A DNA stretch of 64,000 bases from an uncultured Lachnospiraceae bacterium (GTDB lineage Bacteria; Bacillota; Clostridia; Lachnospirales; Lachnospiraceae): positions 124,001 through 188,000 of the forward strand of contig CAMKQH010000002.1 of assembly GCA_946414885.1 (NCBI GenBank). Reading direction: 5' to 3'. This document shows, piece by piece, positions 4,071 through 11,806 of this stretch; the stretch's first letter is position 1, and each line of letters starts with the position of its first letter. Under the pieces are notes generated by a model, which saw only the letters and a list, made by a program, of their open reading frames with translations, did no database searches and had not been told where the DNA came from. Position numbers and translations under genes: made by a program.

Positions 4071-5351
4071 ATGAAAAAGAAGATATTATTGTTACTTTGT
4101 GCATGCATGATGCTGGGGGGATGTTCGGATGCCGGAACCGGAAAACCGTCAGAGACGGAAAAGCCTTCCGTGCAGGAGACGCAAGGCTCGCAGGAGACGC
4201 CGGTGCTCGGGGAAGGAGAAGAGCAGGAAATCCAGCAGGTGGAACTGACGGACGCTTATCAAAAAGCAGCTTATTTTGCGGACCAGATATATAAGGAGAA
4301 GCATGGTAACGTGCTTGTCAGCCCGCTTTCCTTGAACGTGGCGCTTGGCATGGCGACGGAGGGCGCTTCCGGTGAGACGGCGAAGGAGCTGTACCGCTAT
4401 CTGGGCAGGGAGGATTATGCTGACTGGGTAGATGAATACATGACTTATGCCGAGAGCCTGAAGACCGGGAGCGGGAAAAAGTCCGGATATACGTTTAACT
4501 ACAAGCTGGCCAATTCCATCTGGGTAAAGAAGGAGGCAAAGCTTCTCAAGGATTATCAAAAGCTTGTGGAGAAGAAGTTCAGGGCCGAGGCGGAGAACGT
4601 GGACTTTGTGGGAGATGCGGACAGAACGGTAAAGAAGATTAATTCCTGGTGTGACAAGCATACGGAAGGGCTGATCAAGGAAGTTGTTAAGCCGAACATG
4701 TTTACTGCTGATCTGATGGCGATCCTGACCAATTCCGTTTATTTTGAATCTCCATGGGTGGAGGCATGGAACCTTAGAACGCATGAGTTCACGGACCTTC
4801 AGGGAAATAAGAAGGAACAGGAAATGCTGTCCGATACGCTTGGAGCATATTATGAAAACGAGCATGCCACGGCATTTTCCAAGAATTATTATAACGGATT
4901 TCAATTTATCGGCATTTTGCCGAAGGCAGAGGGAGATTTCGAGCTGGGTGACCTTGACCTGAAGAGCCTTTTGGAATCGAAGACGAACGAATATGACGTC
5001 AGAGCACTTATGCCGCAACTGAATTATGAGACGGAGTCGGAGAACGTGATTGATGTGCTGAAAGCCCAGGGAGTTTACAGGGCATTTGATGAGGAACGCG
5101 CAGAGTTTTACCGAATGATCGAGGATGAGCCGCTCTATATCAGCAAGATCATTCAGAAGTGTAAGATTGAGCTCGACAAGGACGGAACCCGCGCGGCTGC
5201 AGTCACGGCGATCTTTATGACAAAGGAATCGGCGGCGATAAGACCGAAGGAAAAGGAAGTGAAAGAGGTGTACCTGGACAGACCGTTTGCGTTCCTGATC
5301 TATGACAGCCAGAAGGACCAGATCGTGTTTGTGGGGAAGGTTGTTGAATAA
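4071..5351 (+). CDS. Serpin-family protease inhibitor, predicted lipoprotein
   Basis: A 426-residue protein with a lipoprotein signal peptide (basic start, hydrophobic core, lipobox LGGC with Cys at about 18), a Glu/Thr-rich spacer and a full serpin fold. Recognisable serpin signatures are NSIWV near residue 143, ILTNSVYFESPW (near 215) and the C-terminal RPFAFLIYD. The reactive-centre hinge reads DGTRAAAVTAI (near residue 370), close to the small-residue pattern of inhibitory serpins, so it may inhibit serine proteases by the trapping mechanism. The scissile bond probably lies in the 15-20 residues after the hinge (FMTKESAAIRP region) but cannot be assigned. Anchored outside the cell, it could protect the bacterium from host or competitor proteases. 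It stands alone between the B6 module and the glycan cluster. Confidence 0.9.
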   Translation: MKKKILLLLCACMMLGGCSDAGTGKPSETEKPSVQETQGSQETPVLGEGEEQEIQQVELTDAYQKAAYFADQIYKEKHGNVLVSPLSLNVALGMATEGASGETAKELYRYLGREDYADWVDEYMTYAESLKTGSGKKSGYTFNYKLANSIWVKKEAKLLKDYQKLVEKKFRAEAENVDFVGDADRTVKKINSWCDKHTEGLIKEVVKPNMFTADLMAILTNSVYFESPWVEAWNLRTHEFTDLQGNKKEQEMLSDTLGAYYENEHATAFSKNYYNGFQFIGILPKAEGDFELGDLDLKSLLESKTNEYDVRALMPQLNYETESENVIDVLKAQGVYRAFDEERAEFYRMIEDEPLYISKIIQKCKIELDKDGTRAAAVTAIFMTKESAAIRPKEKEVKEVYLDRPFAFLIYDSQKDQIVFVGKVVE

Positions 5352-5386: not shown

Positions 5387-5433
5387 GGGAAATGGCAGAA
5401 AAATACATTGAAACTTTTGCCATTTCCCTTTAA
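5387..5433 (+). terminator. Intrinsic terminator of the serpin gene
   Basis: Stem GGGAAATGGCA (5387-5397) pairs perfectly with 5418-5428 and is followed by TTTAAT. The right arm overlaps the -35 box of the next promoter (5417-5422), so the two transcription units abut closely. Confidence 0.75.
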
Positions 5434-5465
5434 TATTGTATTATGAGACGTGTGCGGTCACGTCT
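5417..5465 (+). promoter_or_regulatory. GH94 promoter with palindromic operator candidate
   Basis: TTGCCA (5417-5422), a 16-bp spacer and TATTAT (5439-5444) form a sigma-A promoter. Immediately downstream, a perfect inverted repeat AGACGTG-N6-CACGTCT (5446-5465) would cover the transcription start, a typical repressor position. Confidence 0.6.
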
Positions 5466-5507
5466 GGTAATAGTGCAAGAAACAGTAAAATGCAGGAGGT
5501 TACAAAC

Positions 5508-7901
5508 ATGCAATACGGTTATTTTGACGAGGTGAAGAAAGAGTACGTCATCACTAAGCCCAATACGCCGGCGCCTTGGGCGAATTACCTGGGATCCCCG
5601 GCATACGGTGCCATCATTTCGAACAATGCGGGCGGCTACAGCTTTGTTAAGAGCGGCGCGAACGGAAGAATCATCCGCTATCATTTTAACAGTGACGATA
5701 CGCCTGGCAGATACGTTTATCTGCGCGACGATGACACGAAGGATTTCTGGTCCGCAACCTGGCAGCCTGTTGGCAAGGACCTGAACGATTACAAGAGTGA
5801 GTGTCATCACGGAACCGCTTATTCCAACATGATCGCGGAATACGCAGGGATCCATTCCGAGGTTCTGTATTACGTTCCCCTGAACAAGACCTATGAGGTA
5901 TGGGCTGCAAAGGTGACGAACAAGTCTGCAAAGCCCAGGACTATTTCCGTATTTGGCTACGCGGAGTTCACGAACGACAGCAATTACGAGCAGGATCAGG
6001 TGAACCTGCAGTACACGCAGTTCATTACCGCAACCCATTTTGAGAACAATAAGATTTATCAGAAGATCAATCCGAACTTTGGCAAGGATCAGACCGGCTC
6101 CAACCACAAGGAGCGTTTCTTCGGCATGGCCGGCCAGACCGTTGTTTCCTACAATGGTGACAAGCAGGCATTCCTTGGCAACTACCATTCCTACGGCAAT
6201 CCCATTGCGGTTGAGAACGGTGCGTGCGACAACGTGCTGAATTATAACTCCAACGGATGCGGCGCGCTGCATACCCAGATCACGTTAGAGCCCGGAGAAA
6301 CGAAGGAGGTTGCATTCCTTCTTGGACAGGCTGAGCCTTGGGTGGCTGATGAGATCCTGGCTGCATACAAGGATCTTTCCATTGTGGAAAAGGAGAAGCA
6401 GGAACTCATTACTTACTGGCATTCAAAACTCATGAACTTCCAGGTGAACACCCCGGATCCCGCGTTCAACAGCATGATCAATACTTGGAACGCATATCAG
6501 TGCTTCATCACCTTTACCTGGTCCCGTGCGGCTTCCTTCAGCTACTGCGGACAGCGTAACGGTTACGGATATCGTGACACCGTTCAGGACATCCAGGGAA
6601 TCATCCATCTGGATCCCGCCATGGCAGAAAAGCAGCTGACCTTCATGCTTTCCGCGCAGGTTGACAATGGCGGCGGACTGCCTTTGGTAAAATATGACCA
6701 TAATCCCGGACACGAGGATACGCCGGATGACGAATCCTACGTTCGTTCCACGGGTCATCCCGCATACCGTGCGGACGATGCACTGTGGCTCTTCCCGACG
6801 GTTTGGAAGTATGTTTCCGAGACCGGCGACAAGGATTACGTAAAGAAGGTGATCCCTTATGCGAATAAGGACGAGGGCACCGTTTACGATCACTTAAAGA
6901 GAGCGATCAATTTCTCCATGGAGAGACTTGGCGATCACAAGATGCCCGCAGGACTTCACGCAGACTGGAATGACTGCTTAAGACTCGGCAAGAAGGGTGA
7001 GTCCACGTTCGTGGCACTGCAGCTCTACTATGCATTCACGGTAATGAAGGGCTTTGCGAAGGATCTGAATGATACGGAGTATCTTGGATATCTTGAGGCA
7101 ACCCAGAAGGAGCTTGGCGAGATCATCAACAAGGAATGCTGGGAGGACGACAGATTTGTCCGCGGCATCAAGGAGGATGGCCAGGTCATCGGTTCCAAGA
7201 ACGATCCCGAGGCAAGCATGTGGCTGAATCCCCAGTCCTGGGCAGTTATCAGCGGACTGGCAACAAAGGATCAGGCTGAGAAGGCTTTGGAGAGCGTTCA
7301 CCGCGAGCTGAACACAAAGTATGGCGTTCGCGTAATGGCACCTTCCTACGTGGATCATGCGTTTGACGGCGCACTGGCACTGCTCTTTAACCCCTCCACG
7401 AAGGAGAACGGCGGTATCTTCTCACAGCCTCAGGGCTGGATCATTCTCGCTGAATCCCTGATGGGACACGGCAACAGGGCATTCGAGTACTTCACTGAGA
7501 GCTCCCCTGCATCCCAGAACAATGATGCAGACGTAAGACGCCTGGAGCCCTACGTACACGGCCAGTTTACTGAGGCTGACGAATCTCCTTTCCACGGCAG
7601 AAGCCACGTGCATTGGCTGACCGGTACCGCATCCACCTGTATGGTAGGTTGCGTGGAAGGTATCTGCGGCATGAGACCTGACCTGAACGGCCTTTGGGTT
7701 TGCCCGACCATTCCTTCGGCTTGGAAGGAAATGACCATGGACAAGAATTTCCGCGGCAAGAAGCTTCATATCACCGTTCGCAACGAGAGCGGCGCTGAGA
7801 GCGGATTCAAGGAGTTCTACCTGAACGGGGTGAAACTCGACCAGCCTTACGTTCCCGCAGCTGACATGAAGGACGAGAATGAAGTGGTTGTGATCATGTA
7901 A
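5508..7901 (+). CDS. GH94 disaccharide phosphorylase (cellobiose/chitobiose phosphorylase family)
   Basis: A 797-residue cytosolic glycoside phosphorylase, the normal length for GH94. It starts MQYGYFD...EYVIT, the family N-terminus, and contains the segment HADWNDCL whose second Asp (about residue 489) is at the position of the general acid of characterised GH94 enzymes. The start ATG at 5508 follows AGGAGG by 7 nt; an upstream ATG at 5436 lies inside the promoter and is rejected. GH94 enzymes split a beta-glucosidic disaccharide with phosphate, saving ATP. Features resemble both cellobiose and N,N'-diacetylchitobiose phosphorylases, so the substrate is open. Neighbouring GH51 and GH36 genes point to plant-glycan oligosaccharides. 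Codon use is that of a well-expressed gene. Confidence 0.88.
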   Translation: MQYGYFDEVKKEYVITKPNTPAPWANYLGSPAYGAIISNNAGGYSFVKSGANGRIIRYHFNSDDTPGRYVYLRDDDTKDFWSATWQPVGKDLNDYKSECHHGTAYSNMIAEYAGIHSEVLYYVPLNKTYEVWAAKVTNKSAKPRTISVFGYAEFTNDSNYEQDQVNLQYTQFITATHFENNKIYQKINPNFGKDQTGSNHKERFFGMAGQTVVSYNGDKQAFLGNYHSYGNPIAVENGACDNVLNYNSNGCGALHTQITLEPGETKEVAFLLGQAEPWVADEILAAYKDLSIVEKEKQELITYWHSKLMNFQVNTPDPAFNSMINTWNAYQCFITFTWSRAASFSYCGQRNGYGYRDTVQDIQGIIHLDPAMAEKQLTFMLSAQVDNGGGLPLVKYDHNPGHEDTPDDESYVRSTGHPAYRADDALWLFPTVWKYVSETGDKDYVKKVIPYANKDEGTVYDHLKRAINFSMERLGDHKMPAGLHADWNDCLRLGKKGESTFVALQLYYAFTVMKGFAKDLNDTEYLGYLEATQKELGEIINKECWEDDRFVRGIKEDGQVIGSKNDPEASMWLNPQSWAVISGLATKDQAEKALESVHRELNTKYGVRVMAPSYVDHAFDGALALLFNPSTKENGGIFSQPQGWIILAESLMGHGNRAFEYFTESSPASQNNDADVRRLEPYVHGQFTEADESPFHGRSHVHWLTGTASTCMVGCVEGICGMRPDLNGLWVCPTIPSAWKEMTMDKNFRGKKLHITVRNESGAESGFKEFYLNGVKLDQPYVPAADMKDENEVVVIM

Positions 7902-7908
7902 AAGAATA

Positions 7909-7938
7909 TTTTTAGGGGAGCCTAAACTCCCCTAAAAA
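7909..7938. other. Intercistronic hairpin between GH94 and GH51 genes
   Basis: Perfect 12-bp arms TTTTTAGGGGAG / CTCCCCTAAAAA around CCTAAA. The right side is followed by A residues rather than a T-run, so it is a weak terminator at best. It may act as a processing or attenuation element between the two genes. Confidence 0.6.
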
Positions 7939-7950
7939 AATAGTTCAATG

Positions 7951-7964
7951 ATAAAACGATTTAC
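7951..7964. promoter_or_regulatory. LacI-family operator candidate (ATAAAACGATTTAC)
   Basis: This 14-mer differs by one base from GTAAAACGATTTAC at 16538, which lies just downstream of a strong sugar-transporter promoter. The arms [GA]TAAA / TTTAC flank a central CG, the usual architecture of LacI/GalR operators. It lies 31 nt before the GH51 start codon. Confidence 0.55.
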
Positions 7965-7995
7965 TTTGATAAATTAAAAAATGGGAGGTTACAAA

Positions 7996-9597
7996 ATGGC
8001 AGAAACAGCAAAAATCACAGTACATCCGTCTTTTAAGATCGGAGAGATCTCACCGAGGCTCTTTAGTACGTTCTTAGAGCCCATCGGAACCATGGTGAAC
8101 GGCACCATGTACAATCCCAAGCATCCCACCGCGGACGAGCAGGGATTCCGTACGGACTTTATCAACGGGTTGAAGGGGACGGGCATGCCGGCATGTCGTC
8201 TGCCCGGCGGAAACTTTGTATCCGCATGGCGGTGGAAGGATTCCATCGGCCCCAAGGACCAGAGGAAGGTTCACCTGGATCCCGCATGGTATCAGTTTAT
8301 CCCAAATGACGTGGGACACGACGAGTATCTGCAGTGGGCGGAGAAGGTTGGAACGGAGCCTTTGTACACGATCAATCTTGGCACCGGCACGTTTCAGGAC
8401 GCCATGGACATCGTGGAGTACACGAACTTTGAGGGCGGCTCCTACTGGTCTGACCTGCGTAAGCAGTATGGACATGAGAAGCCTTACGGCGTAAAGACCT
8501 GGTATCTTGGAAATGAGATGGACGGTCCCTGGCAGCTTGGTTCCTGGGACAAGGATCCGAGAGGTTACGGCGTTCGTTGTAACGAGGTTTCCAAGGCCAT
8601 GAAGTGGATCGACGCCTCCATCGAGACGGCAGTATGCGCAAGCTCCGCATTGTTCATGGACCACTATCCCACTTGGGAGGAGACCGTATTGCAGGAGTGC
8701 TATGAGACCGTGGATCTTCTTTCCATGCATCACTATCACAGCGCACCTCCCGGAGACTGGAAGGCCCTGCTCGGCGGTTCCGCATATTACGAGGACTTCA
8801 TCAATACCGAGATCGCAATGTGTGACCTCGTCGGGGCAAAGTGCCGTTCGCCGAAGAAGATCATGCTTTCCTTTGATGAGTATGGCTGCATGGTTCGCCC
8901 GAACAGCCCGCTTCATCCCGGATATGGCTATCACAACATGGCGAGATCGCATTATCGCTTTGATCCGAAGAGACCTTATATCCGCCATGATCCCGACAAC
9001 ATGCCGGACAGACAGTTCCCCGGCGGCGACATGCTTCACGCACTTTCCATGCTGTCCATCCAGCTGGCGTTCCTGCGTCACGCAGACCGCGTGAAGATCG
9101 GATGCATGACGGGCGGTCTCGGAGCACTTTGCAGCTCCAACCATGATCACGTATGGAAGTCTGCTTCCCACTACGCATTCATGGACATGATCAATTACGC
9201 AAAGGGAACCTCCATGCGCACGGACGTACAGAGCGAAACTTATGACATTCCCGGCTATGCGATCGATGACACTTCACAGTACTACGACAAGGAAGGCCTT
9301 ACTTACGTTGACAGCGCTTCCGCCTGGGATGAAAAGGAGGAAACCCTGACGATTTTTGTCATCAACAGAAATGAAGAGACGGAATATCCGATTAGGGTAG
9401 ACGTGCGCGGATTTGAGGAGTATACTTTTGATAAGCATATCGAATTATGCTCAGATGATCTGGACGCTAAAAACAGTTTCGAGGAGCCGGAGCGCATCAT
9501 GCCTGCCCTGAAGTCTGGGGGGACTTTTGAAGACGGCATTTATGCGGGACACGTAAGACCTCTTTCCTGGAACGTTCTTCGTTTCAAGAAGAACTAA
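7996..9597 (+). CDS. GH51 alpha-L-arabinofuranosidase
   Basis: A 533-residue intracellular exo-enzyme that releases terminal L-arabinofuranose from arabinan or arabinoxylan oligosaccharides. The acid/base Glu is in GNEMDGPW (residue 174) and the nucleophile Glu in SFDEYG (residue 295), positions almost the same as in characterised GH51 enzymes. There is no signal peptide. The start chosen is ATG 7996 because GGGAGGT at 7983-7989 is its ribosome binding site; the ATG at 7981 overlaps that site. The gene lies between the GH94 phosphorylase and the sugar-sensing cyclase, and a LacI-type operator precedes it. Other GH51 activities (endoglucanase) exist but this motif set is the arabinofuranosidase one. 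Confidence 0.92.
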   Translation: MAETAKITVHPSFKIGEISPRLFSTFLEPIGTMVNGTMYNPKHPTADEQGFRTDFINGLKGTGMPACRLPGGNFVSAWRWKDSIGPKDQRKVHLDPAWYQFIPNDVGHDEYLQWAEKVGTEPLYTINLGTGTFQDAMDIVEYTNFEGGSYWSDLRKQYGHEKPYGVKTWYLGNEMDGPWQLGSWDKDPRGYGVRCNEVSKAMKWIDASIETAVCASSALFMDHYPTWEETVLQECYETVDLLSMHHYHSAPPGDWKALLGGSAYYEDFINTEIAMCDLVGAKCRSPKKIMLSFDEYGCMVRPNSPLHPGYGYHNMARSHYRFDPKRPYIRHDPDNMPDRQFPGGDMLHALSMLSIQLAFLRHADRVKIGCMTGGLGALCSSNHDHVWKSASHYAFMDMINYAKGTSMRTDVQSETYDIPGYAIDDTSQYYDKEGLTYVDSASAWDEKEETLTIFVINRNEETEYPIRVDVRGFEEYTFDKHIELCSDDLDAKNSFEEPERIMPALKSGGTFEDGIYAGHVRPLSWNVLRFKKN

Positions 9598-9644
9598 ATG
9601 GGTCTCCGCTCCTTGAGTGATATGGTATCTTTTGGAGTTGGGGA

Positions 9645-11585
9645 ATGAAGAAAAAAATAGCGGTATTTGCAAACGGCTGGAGTAACGAGGCACTCTCTAA
9701 CGCCGTTAAGGGAATTAAAAAATATGCGGCACAGGAAGACTTTGACGTATTTGTCTTCCTGTGCTTTGCTAACGTTAGCGCGCAGACGGAATTGATGCAG
9801 GGCGAACTGAACGTATACGGCCTGTGTAACATGGCGGACTATGACGGCATCATTATCTTTTCCAACATGCTGAATTCGGATGAAACCGTGATCTCTCTTT
9901 GCGAAAGGGCAAGGGATCAGGGAGTCCCGGTGGTCAGCATTGGCATGGAGGTGGACGACGTGCCCTGCGTGAGCGTGGACGGAAATACGGGCATGCGCGA
10001 TCTTGTAGCGCATCTGGTGGAAAAGCACGGCGTGCGGGACGTGGTTTACGTGGGCGGCGTGCCCGGTCATGCGGAGAGCGACGCGAGGCTTGAGACTGTC
10101 AGAAAGGTATTAAAAGAGCACGGACACTCCTTAAAGCATGAGAACGTGGTTTACGGCGGCTGGTCAAACCGTCGGACCATCGAGGCGATCCATTCCGTTT
10201 TGAAGACTCGCAAGGGTAAGCTTCCGGATGCCTTTATCTGCGCGAATGACATTATGGCGTTATCAACGGCTACGGAGCTTGGAAACATGGGCTATACGCT
10301 CCCGAAGGACGTCATCGTGACGGGGTTTGATTACGCCAAGGACGGTCAGATCTTTTTCCCGGCACTTACGACCGTGCAACAGAACTATGACGAAGTGGGG
10401 TATCAGTGTTGCAAGATCCTTTTCGAAAACATGAAGCGGGGAAAGTTTAGGGCGCGTTATCTGGTTTCCACCTGCTTGCATCTGGGGGAAAGCTGCGGCT
10501 GTAGCAACACCATGGATGGATGGAAGCTGAGAACGGACTTCTGCAAACACTTTTACCAGAAGTCAACGGATGCGGCTTTTATGGAGCAGACGGAGCGCTC
10601 CATGAGACAGAAGATCTCAGAGGTGAGCAGCTACGCGGACCTAAAGCTTAGCCTTCGCGAACATTTCCATGAAAATCACAGATTTGAAGGCGAGAACCTT
10701 CACATCGTGGTCAATGCCGAGTACTTCCAGAACGTTATGGCCAGCGAGCAGGAGATCTGGGACAAGAAAACCCGGAAAAAGCTTGAAGTGGTGGTATCGT
10801 TAAAGGACGGCGAGATCCAGGAAGTGGAACGGATGGATCGTCGGCAGCTGATCCCGGGATATGAGAAGACGGACGGGGTCCAACACGTGTATTATATCCT
10901 TCCGCTCCATTTTATGCAGTATAATTACGGTTACGTGGTATTTGCGGATGAACCCTATATCCTGACGGAGGAGCTTTTGTATTCCTACATGGAAAAGCTC
11001 CAGCAAGCGTTAAAGCTTCTTCGCACGAACCTTCGCCTGGACGCGCTGAACAAGAATCTGACGAGGTTATACGACAAGGATCCCATGACGGACTTGTTCA
11101 ATCGTTTTGGCTATGAAAATAAGGCCATTCCGCTGTATCAGGACAGCGTCCGCAAGCATGAAAGCATGATGGTCATGTTCGTTGACATCAACTTTATGAA
11201 GCGCATCAACGACCAGCACGGGCACATTCACGGGGATGCAGCGATCCGGACCGTTGCGGAAGCCATCAAGGAGAACATTGATGGAAATTGGATCGCCGTC
11301 CGGTTTGGAGGCGACGAGTTCCTGATCATTGCGCCGGATTGTGACGACGCGGAAGCTGAGGACGTGAAGAAAAACATCCTGGAGTATTTGGAGGGGAAGA
11401 ATAACGACGGGTCGAGACCCTATCACATTTCCGCGAGCTGCGGCTACGTGATCACGGACCCGGAGAGCGGATATCCCCTGCAGGAATACATCCGCGAGGC
11501 AGACCGTCTGATGTACGAGATCAAGCGGGAAGTGCACGCAAAGGATGAAGAGGAGCAAAAGAAGTTAAAGAAACAAAAAGCATAG
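9645..11585 (+). CDS. LacI-type sugar-binding core (no HTH) fused to GGDEF diguanylate cyclase
   Basis: A 646-residue soluble protein. Residues about 1-290 match the periplasmic-binding-protein-like core of LacI/XylR regulators (start MKKKIAVFANGW; later AFICANDIMALS, VIVTGFDY and FPALTTVQQN), but the DNA-binding helix-turn-helix is absent. A cysteine-containing segment and a linker domain (about 295-480) follow, then a GGDEF domain with the exact GGDEF motif at residues 555-559. No RxxD inhibitory site is visible just upstream, so feedback inhibition by c-di-GMP may be missing. No signal peptide or TM helix is seen. It is encoded 47 nt after the arabinofuranosidase gene, so it probably makes c-di-GMP in response to an intracellular sugar (inference). 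The ligand is unknown. Confidence 0.85.
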   Translation: MKKKIAVFANGWSNEALSNAVKGIKKYAAQEDFDVFVFLCFANVSAQTELMQGELNVYGLCNMADYDGIIIFSNMLNSDETVISLCERARDQGVPVVSIGMEVDDVPCVSVDGNTGMRDLVAHLVEKHGVRDVVYVGGVPGHAESDARLETVRKVLKEHGHSLKHENVVYGGWSNRRTIEAIHSVLKTRKGKLPDAFICANDIMALSTATELGNMGYTLPKDVIVTGFDYAKDGQIFFPALTTVQQNYDEVGYQCCKILFENMKRGKFRARYLVSTCLHLGESCGCSNTMDGWKLRTDFCKHFYQKSTDAAFMEQTERSMRQKISEVSSYADLKLSLREHFHENHRFEGENLHIVVNAEYFQNVMASEQEIWDKKTRKKLEVVVSLKDGEIQEVERMDRRQLIPGYEKTDGVQHVYYILPLHFMQYNYGYVVFADEPYILTEELLYSYMEKLQQALKLLRTNLRLDALNKNLTRLYDKDPMTDLFNRFGYENKAIPLYQDSVRKHESMMVMFVDINFMKRINDQHGHIHGDAAIRTVAEAIKENIDGNWIAVRFGGDEFLIIAPDCDDAEAEDVKKNILEYLEGKNNDGSRPYHISASCGYVITDPESGYPLQEYIREADRLMYEIKREVHAKDEEEQKKLKKQKA

Positions 11586-11608
11586 CGCCAAAAAGATTGG
11601 GAAGACGA

Positions 11609-11806
11609 TCACTCGTCTTCCCAAAATAATTCATCCAAAGTTTTTCCGAGAACCTTGCAGATGCTTCTGCAAAGGTTGATGGTGGGGTTATAGTCCCCTT
11701 TCTCAATGGCATTGATGGTTTGTCTTGAAACGCCGACCTTGTCTGCCAGGTCCTGCTGGGAGAGATCCAAAGCAGCCCTGGCGGATTTTAATTTTAAATT
11801 CTTCAT
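11609..11806 (-). CDS. Small XRE-family transcriptional regulator
   Basis: A 65-residue protein that is almost entirely an XRE/Cro helix-turn-helix (LSQQDLADKVGVSRQTINAIEKGDYNPTI), with a short acidic tail LFWEDE. Such minimal regulators are usually paired with a membrane protein carrying a DERQ-type segment, as here. The start ATG has a TTGGAGGA site. It is the last gene of a minus-strand operon with the two membrane proteins upstream, and probably autoregulates it. Convergent with the GGDEF gene, 23 nt apart. Confidence 0.85.
   Translation of the reverse strand: MKNLKLKSARAALDLSQQDLADKVGVSRQTINAIEKGDYNPTINLCRSICKVLGKTLDELFWEDE

Follow-up and report, generated by a model that had tools for sequence, protein, structure and literature searches.

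The cyclase gene and its surroundings

The window (the whole 64-kb stretch of Lachnospiraceae DNA analysed here) carries a run of three genes on the same strand, the third of which specifies a protein that joins a LacI-type ligand-binding core to a GGDEF domain. The features of this run, together with one that faces it from downstream, are as follows.

5436..7901, plus strand: GH94 phosphorylase (Pfam, PDB relatives)
7981..9597, plus strand: GH51 alpha-L-arabinofuranosidase, no signal peptide by eye (Pfam, relatives)
9645..11585, plus strand: LacI-core/GGDEF diguanylate cyclase (DGC) gene, 646 aa (open reading frame, Pfam, homologues)
9645..10502, plus strand: LacI/GalR-type ligand-binding core, residues 1–286, without a helix-turn-helix (HTH) domain, and with R148, W173, N201, D229 and Y248 as the pocket (Pfam, LacI alignments, conservation)
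10485..10502, plus strand: junction motif GESCGC, residues 281–286 (Cys conservation in relatives)
10503..11009, plus strand: middle transducer domain, residues 287–455, of no named family (Pfam matches at chance level only, none in PDB)
11010..11078, plus strand: linker, a presumed signalling helix, residues 456–478 (two linker lengths in relatives)
11079..11534, plus strand: GGDEF catalytic domain, residues 479–630, with VRFGGDEF and no RxxD (Pfam, conservation)
11597..11624, minus strand: hairpin with a T-run where a small convergent HTH gene ends, directed towards the cyclase gene (weak, as six terminator-like hairpins were found against 6.6 expected in shuffles)

An earlier note on this DNA had described the third gene as a cytosolic diguanylate cyclase in which a LacI core without an HTH is fused to an intact GGDEF domain, and had placed it behind GH94 and GH51 genes. 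The open reading frame and its coordinates are exact, both glycosidase genes lie upstream on the same strand, and the domain composition is borne out. Pfam searches at E≤1 returned the expected Peripla_BP_3 (residues 121–284, 1.3e-22), flanked by overlapping matches to Peripla_BP_4 (5–264) and Peripla_BP_1 (20–269), and GGDEF (PF00990, residues 478–629) at 4.4e-34 and 118 bits against a curated cut-off of 23.8; a sub-cut-off Cas10 palm match falls within the GGDEF domain. No HTH family was matched in the protein at the same threshold. An overlooked HTH in the same frame upstream, which the note had raised as a challenge to its own reading, can be ruled out, since only 8 codons are open in frame ahead of the ATG and the gap to the GH51 open reading frame is 47 nt, too little for an HTH of about 50 aa. 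Because the protein opens with the first strand of its core (the Peripla_BP_4 match starts at residue 5) and there is no room upstream, we conclude that this is an HTH-less core with a cyclase domain. Neither a signal peptide nor a transmembrane segment was seen by eye, and the protein thus appears cytosolic, as proposed.

The likely true start of the GH94 protein is Met 25 of its open reading frame, which aligns with the start of its PDB relatives. The closest of these is Blautia producta BpGH94MLG (PDB 8bou, 1186 bits), whose PDB entry names it an N,N'-diacetylchitobiose phosphorylase, followed by a chitobiose phosphorylase (536 bits) and by chains named cellobiose phosphorylase (416 bits or less). 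A passage of PMC10318527 describes BpGH94MLG as a cytoplasmic enzyme that cleaves cellotriose and mixed-linkage oligosaccharides and not cellobiose. In sequence, the neighbouring GH94 resembles such a cellodextrin/mixed-linkage-glucan phosphorylase not acting on cellobiose, which makes cellobiose, one of the sugars the earlier note had suggested for assays, doubtful as a substrate of this operon. The GH51 protein is similar to intracellular exo-arabinofuranosidases.

Several further features were observed around the run. Between the GH94 and GH51 genes lies a hairpin with a 13-pair stem and no plus-strand T-run (7909–7938), a possible RNA processing or stability element. The translation of an open reading frame at 4071–5351 resembles, by eye, a secreted serpin; the related locus L042 carries this gene twice, at 55% and 95% identity. 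Convergent to the cyclase gene is a small XRE-type HTH gene (11609–11806, minus strand, 65 aa, by eye), and beyond it are dn374 and CPBP-protease genes, which also lie downstream of the cyclase in L041, L042, L043, L138, L140 and L141.

A family of fused proteins in the Lachnospiraceae

The earlier note had described an apparent loss of the HTH in this one gene; what we find instead is a widespread family with an extra domain of its own. A search at E≤1e-20 gave 690 homologues, and the best 120 of these 690 all bear the same Pfam set, which excludes a chance fusion. The idea of a one-off fusion was likewise rejected, homologues being many and spread across genomes of the family and the genus. 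In a family-level sample, relatives occur in at least 79 of 299 genomes, own included (E≤1e-25; a lower bound, as 4 candidates were scored per genome), and at the genus level matches were obtained in 25 of 101 genomes (E≤1e-100). The genome from which the window derives contains 34 GGDEF matches and 13 Peripla_BP_3 matches. Among the latter, 6 share their frame with a GGDEF match, another 6 belong to proteins in which an HTH is seen by eye, and the last is in a protein that resembles a lipoprotein. One of the six fused frames, L035 (G000:C32:21466-23199), has a degenerate GGDEF domain with an EAL motif and is a possible sugar-gated phosphodiesterase.

The ligand-binding pocket

Residues R148, N201, D202 and D229 are invariant in all 82 rows of our alignment, whose identity to the query goes down to 24%; position 173 is Trp in 75 of the 82 rows, and position 248 is Tyr, Phe or Trp in 75. 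When aligned to E. coli LacI, W173, N201, D229 and Y248 fall on W220, N246, D274 and F293, while R148 aligns with a conserved Arg of ancestral LacI, a position that we take to be LacI R197. In LacI, R197, W220, N246, D274 and F293 are inducer contacts, and this sugar-contact set is kept in the cyclase core, with Tyr for F293. The earlier note had held open a pocket devoid of sugar-binding residues; the five LacI-anchored positions are present. (A ten-position version of this test was biased, as five positions had been picked post hoc, and we used the five LacI-anchored ones alone.)

The pocket also varies little among close relatives. Twelve of the 26 members of the near clade (loci at 43% identity or more), which differ in their neighbours, are identical at 13 sensor positions save for one S145N and for position 15, which is E, D or G; apart from the five anchored in LacI, these positions were picked with conservation in view. 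Since this near-identical signature occurs beside GH51, GH94, GH43, GH27 and GH115/GH8 genes, it suggests that the near clade would share one ligand whatever GH gene adjoins, and a ligand specific to each operon, as the earlier note implied, becomes doubtful. Three paralogues of the same genome (L172, L173 and L174; G000:C3, C32 and C8), by comparison, differ at 6–7 of the 13 sensor positions, one of them having Ser at N201, and on the strength of these differences they probably bind other ligands.

Linkage to glycoside hydrolase genes

The order GH94-GH51-DGC is found in six genomes (window, L041, L042, L043, L138 and L140), and the cyclases of these six loci form one clade with support of 100/100. 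Linkage to GH genes, whose conservation the earlier note had proposed to survey, holds in the closest relatives: an adjacent GH gene was present in 13 of 24 informative near-clade loci. None was found among 29 upstream neighbours of members outside the near clade (E≤1e-25). By comparison, 1 of 21 control GGDEF genes had such a neighbour (Fisher p=0.0004), a contrast to be read in the light of the near-clade loci being related rather than independent (the 13 GH-linked ones represent about five lineages) and of unequal Pfam cut-offs (1e-5 for family neighbours, 1e-25 for controls) and listings capped at 25 families, such that weak GH matches among the controls could escape. The sole control GH neighbour was a GH77 gene, and a phmmer search of the control neighbours with nine queries for seven GH families gave nothing at 1e-3. 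The GH types adjoining the 13 cyclases were GH51 (6), GH115 and GH8 (3), GH94 (2), GH43 (1) and GH27 (1). Among 77 downstream neighbours there were also GH53, rhamnosidase, GH10, a second GH43 and a third GH94, and in L157, L163, L168 and L170 a GH51 gene lies within a few kilobases of the cyclase. Around three other LacI-core cyclases of the own genome, the 6 neighbouring genes had no match to the GH families tried.

For these counts, two of the 26 near-clade loci were dropped (L050, which begins at a contig end, and L141, whose upstream region is off the contig), L143 was retained although its upstream gene is off the contig, and L137 and L139 duplicate L042 and L043. An antisense open reading frame first picked as the neighbour in L140 was replaced by the GH51 found with tblastn; the GH94 genes of L046 and L047 were identified by tblastn at 31%, that of L047 from its last 154 residues alone, where the contig ends; and L052 was compared with L051 by blastp (82% and 96%). 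The controls were 21 of the 28 own-genome GGDEF matches outside LacI-core proteins, and of their 40 distinct neighbours 38 were used, the other two being GGDEF genes that adjoin each other.

Linkage of this kind could reflect co-expression only, with the core binding something other than a sugar, such as a purine, an AI-2-like compound or, as in CcpA, a partner protein. PurR and CcpA are indeed among the sequence relatives, and 11 of the 24 near-clade loci lack an adjacent GH gene, two of them having an EAL (L044) or HD-GYP-type (L144) gene in its place. We nonetheless consider a non-sugar ligand unlikely, given that the LacI-type sugar-contact set, including the counterparts of W220 and N246, is kept and that GH neighbours are so much more frequent than among the controls.

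Other c-di-GMP genes also stand close to the cyclase in L144 and L045. In L144 the HD-GYP-type (HD_5) gene (5403-7049) lies directly upstream of the cyclase relative and is itself preceded by a GH94 gene (87%). In L045 a LacI-core cyclase (50% identical) is preceded, 86 nt upstream and in the same orientation, by a PTS_EIIC-EAL fusion (7818-9914), and a GH43/carboxylesterase gene converges on it from downstream; the PTS_EIIC-EAL protein and the cyclase are possibly a sugar-linked cyclase/phosphodiesterase pair.

The cyclase changes much faster than its neighbours. Compared with L043, L138 and L140, its LacI core is 57–69% identical, its middle domain 59–79% and its GGDEF domain 75–83%, versus 89–94% for GH51 and 96% for GH94; for the HTH-type LacI of the window, identity to the L043 counterpart is 88.8% over 197 aa. 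Such divergence fits surface drift around a fixed pocket, but also relaxed constraint, as would be expected if the cyclase were constitutive or controlled by transcription, its production following induction of the GH operon and its LacI core no longer answering to ligand. The gene is well placed for co-transcription with its neighbours, as third in the run, across a short gap and without a terminator-like site on the plus strand to separate it from GH51. Against an unresponsive core speak the twelve near-clade members that agree at nearly all sensor positions, and of the alternatives to a sugar-responsive core we rate this one the least probable by some distance.

The Cys junction, middle domain and linker

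The earlier note had left residues 295–480 unassigned and had placed a Cys-rich GESCGCS within them. The segment does lack an assignment, whereas the motif lies ahead of it, at residues 281–287, where the LacI core ends. Among the best 120 of the 690 homologues, 118 have both C284 and C286, all 120 have C300, and 104 contain the exact string ESCGC; one homologue lacks C286 and another lacks both C284 and C286. In the own genome, SCGC occurs in 5 of 6 fused proteins versus 0 of 6 HTH-type LacI proteins, and [ST]CGC is present at 28 of 30 middle-domain loci from a class-wide search. A four-ligand metal site formed by C284, C286, C300 and H302 is unsupported, position 302 being His in only 79 of the 120.

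This conservation raises the question of whether the protein chiefly senses redox state or a metal, by way of the Cys trio (C284, C286 and C300), the LacI core serving mainly as a dimerisation scaffold or tuning the response. The near-universal Cys of the close homologues, their recurrence at the class-wide loci and their restriction to fused proteins in the own genome would all suit such an input. They are, however, less widely kept than the pocket: R148, N201 and D229 are invariant across a wider range, and C300 is missing from the three paralogues compared and from distant rows, in addition to the two exceptions noted above. We judge a Cys-centred input to be improbable, marginally more so than a non-sugar ligand, and favour the pocket as the sensor.

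The middle segment matched no named domain. With 12 representatives of residues 287–472, Pfam gave six single-member chance families (best E 0.058) and no GAF match, and a comparison of the segment with PDB sequences gave no match at E≤10. When a profile of the middle domain was compared with a 23-sequence GAF profile, the hhalign probability was 0.7%, with the best local match at a PL...G motif; as unrelated control pairs gave 0.1–0.8% (with the exception of middle versus core, at 14.1% over six columns at the core's end), we make no claim of a GAF identity. In the class-wide search, the domain was detected in 11 of 245 genomes, own included (E≤1e-6). By regular expression, the 30 loci carry a GGDEF motif in 21 cases and an EAL motif in 7 (two have both), and 4 have neither, one of which has GGDEY.

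The linker (columns 462–479) contains 18 residues in 49 of the 82 rows and 11 in the other 33, a step of one heptad, as expected for a coiled coil that holds its register. A separate regular expression for the linker matched 58 of the best 120 of the 690 homologues, 44 and 13 of them in the two lengths and one at 33.

Following the linker, the catalytic residues D514, N522, D531, G555, G556, D557 and E558 are invariant in 82 of 82 rows; residues of this kind in GGDEF domains include the metal Asp and the guanine-contact Asn and Asp. The RxxD inhibitory site is common in diguanylate cyclases but not obligatory, and the earlier note was right that it is absent here, the position reading DGNW. 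Among 129 relatives (134 rows examined, less 5 with no GGDEF motif by regular expression), RxxD occurs in 2, P0081 and L046, whose letters are identical. The c-di-GMP signal has readers in the genome, as judged from three c-di-GMP-I riboswitches (L251, G000:C18:50000-60000; L252, G000:C6:13000-20000), which precede zinc-ribbon-like, lipoprotein-like and other genes (by eye), and one PilZ match; the window itself had no Rfam match of any kind, c-di-GMP riboswitches included.

A proposed model for sugar control of c-di-GMP

The fused architecture and the gene linkage are firm. Taking them together with the pocket, we think it reasonably probable that the protein is a cytosolic one-component sugar-to-c-di-GMP receptor that signals through the C-terminal side of its core. 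In LacI repressors, the ligand-induced change is read N-terminally by the HTH. In the cyclase, two LacI-type cores would dimerise and close on an intracellular sugar released as hemicellulose is broken down. This would most likely be a monosaccharide that several hemicelluloses have in common (for example L-arabinose, xylose or glucose). The signal would leave by the C-terminal strand at the ESCGC junction and enter the transducer domain of ~180 residues, and the coiled-coil linker would set the alignment of the two GGDEF domains and change c-di-GMP synthesis, in a direction that the model leaves free. As there is no I-site, the product would not shut the cyclase off by the classical route. 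On the evidence of sequence, then, this is likely a sugar-gated cyclase, and the gene probably lets the cell turn its internal sugar level into a behavioural signal.

A broader proposal, which we hold tentatively and rate a little below evenly balanced, extends this to the family. Lachnospiraceae of the gut and rumen may possess a whole set of paralogous sugar receptors in the cytosol, equal in number here to the HTH-type LacI proteins (six and six). These would couple different intracellular sugars directly to c-di-GMP synthesis and, in the EAL members, to its breakdown, by a route that runs through the C-terminal side of the core, a Cys-built junction and a new transducer domain. The pocket signature of each clade would correspond to a sugar of its own, in the near clade a hemicellulose sugar. 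Were a cyclase under direct sugar control, a single protein would connect the digestion of fibre with the c-di-GMP lifestyle signal in Firmicutes of the rumen and gut. Because the pocket signatures are distinct, the search for ligands can be put to direct test.

Comparison with known systems

The LacI/GalR repressors (E. coli LacI, PurR and CcpA) share a homologous ligand-binding core with the cyclase, with sugar-contact residues that align with those of LacI; the cyclase differs from them in having no HTH and in sending its output from the C-terminal end of the core. In cyclases of the GAF- or PAS-GGDEF type that have a signalling helix, a heptad-spaced linker precedes the GGDEF domain. The window cyclase has such a linker in common with them, but neither Pfam nor a profile comparison identifies its middle domain as GAF.

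Among the open-access papers retrieved (subscription papers being mostly outside this set), none was on such a protein by its title or the start of its abstract, and passages of PMC1183210, PMC9540692 and PMC12268683 do not describe the architecture. Passages of a 2022 J Bacteriol review (PMC8846402) list a LacI-like Periplas_BP domain among the sensory domains of GGDEF/EAL/HD-GYP proteins, with no experimentally validated role; they note that it is also found in LacI regulators and may bind sugars, describe the PBP clan as periplasmic, and name SBP_bac_3 alone within that clan as studied. As the domain is listed there without a validated role, LacI-core c-di-GMP proteins are a catalogued but unstudied kind, of which the window cyclase is one member. 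It has the same kind of domain pair as the review's Periplas_BP proteins but appears to be a cytosolic protein, and it adds an unnamed domain and a junction with conserved Cys residues. In the same passages, RmcA of Pseudomonas aeruginosa also combines a PBP-fold sensor with c-di-GMP domains, but its sensor belongs to another PBP family, SBP_bac_3, and senses L-arginine. The V. cholerae EIIA-Glc/PdeS system, as presented there, likewise sets c-di-GMP by intracellular sugar status, but through a PTS protein that acts on a phosphodiesterase, without direct sugar binding. Beside these systems, the newly described details are the conserved Cys trio, the one-heptad linker step and a pocket signature shared beside different hemicellulase genes.
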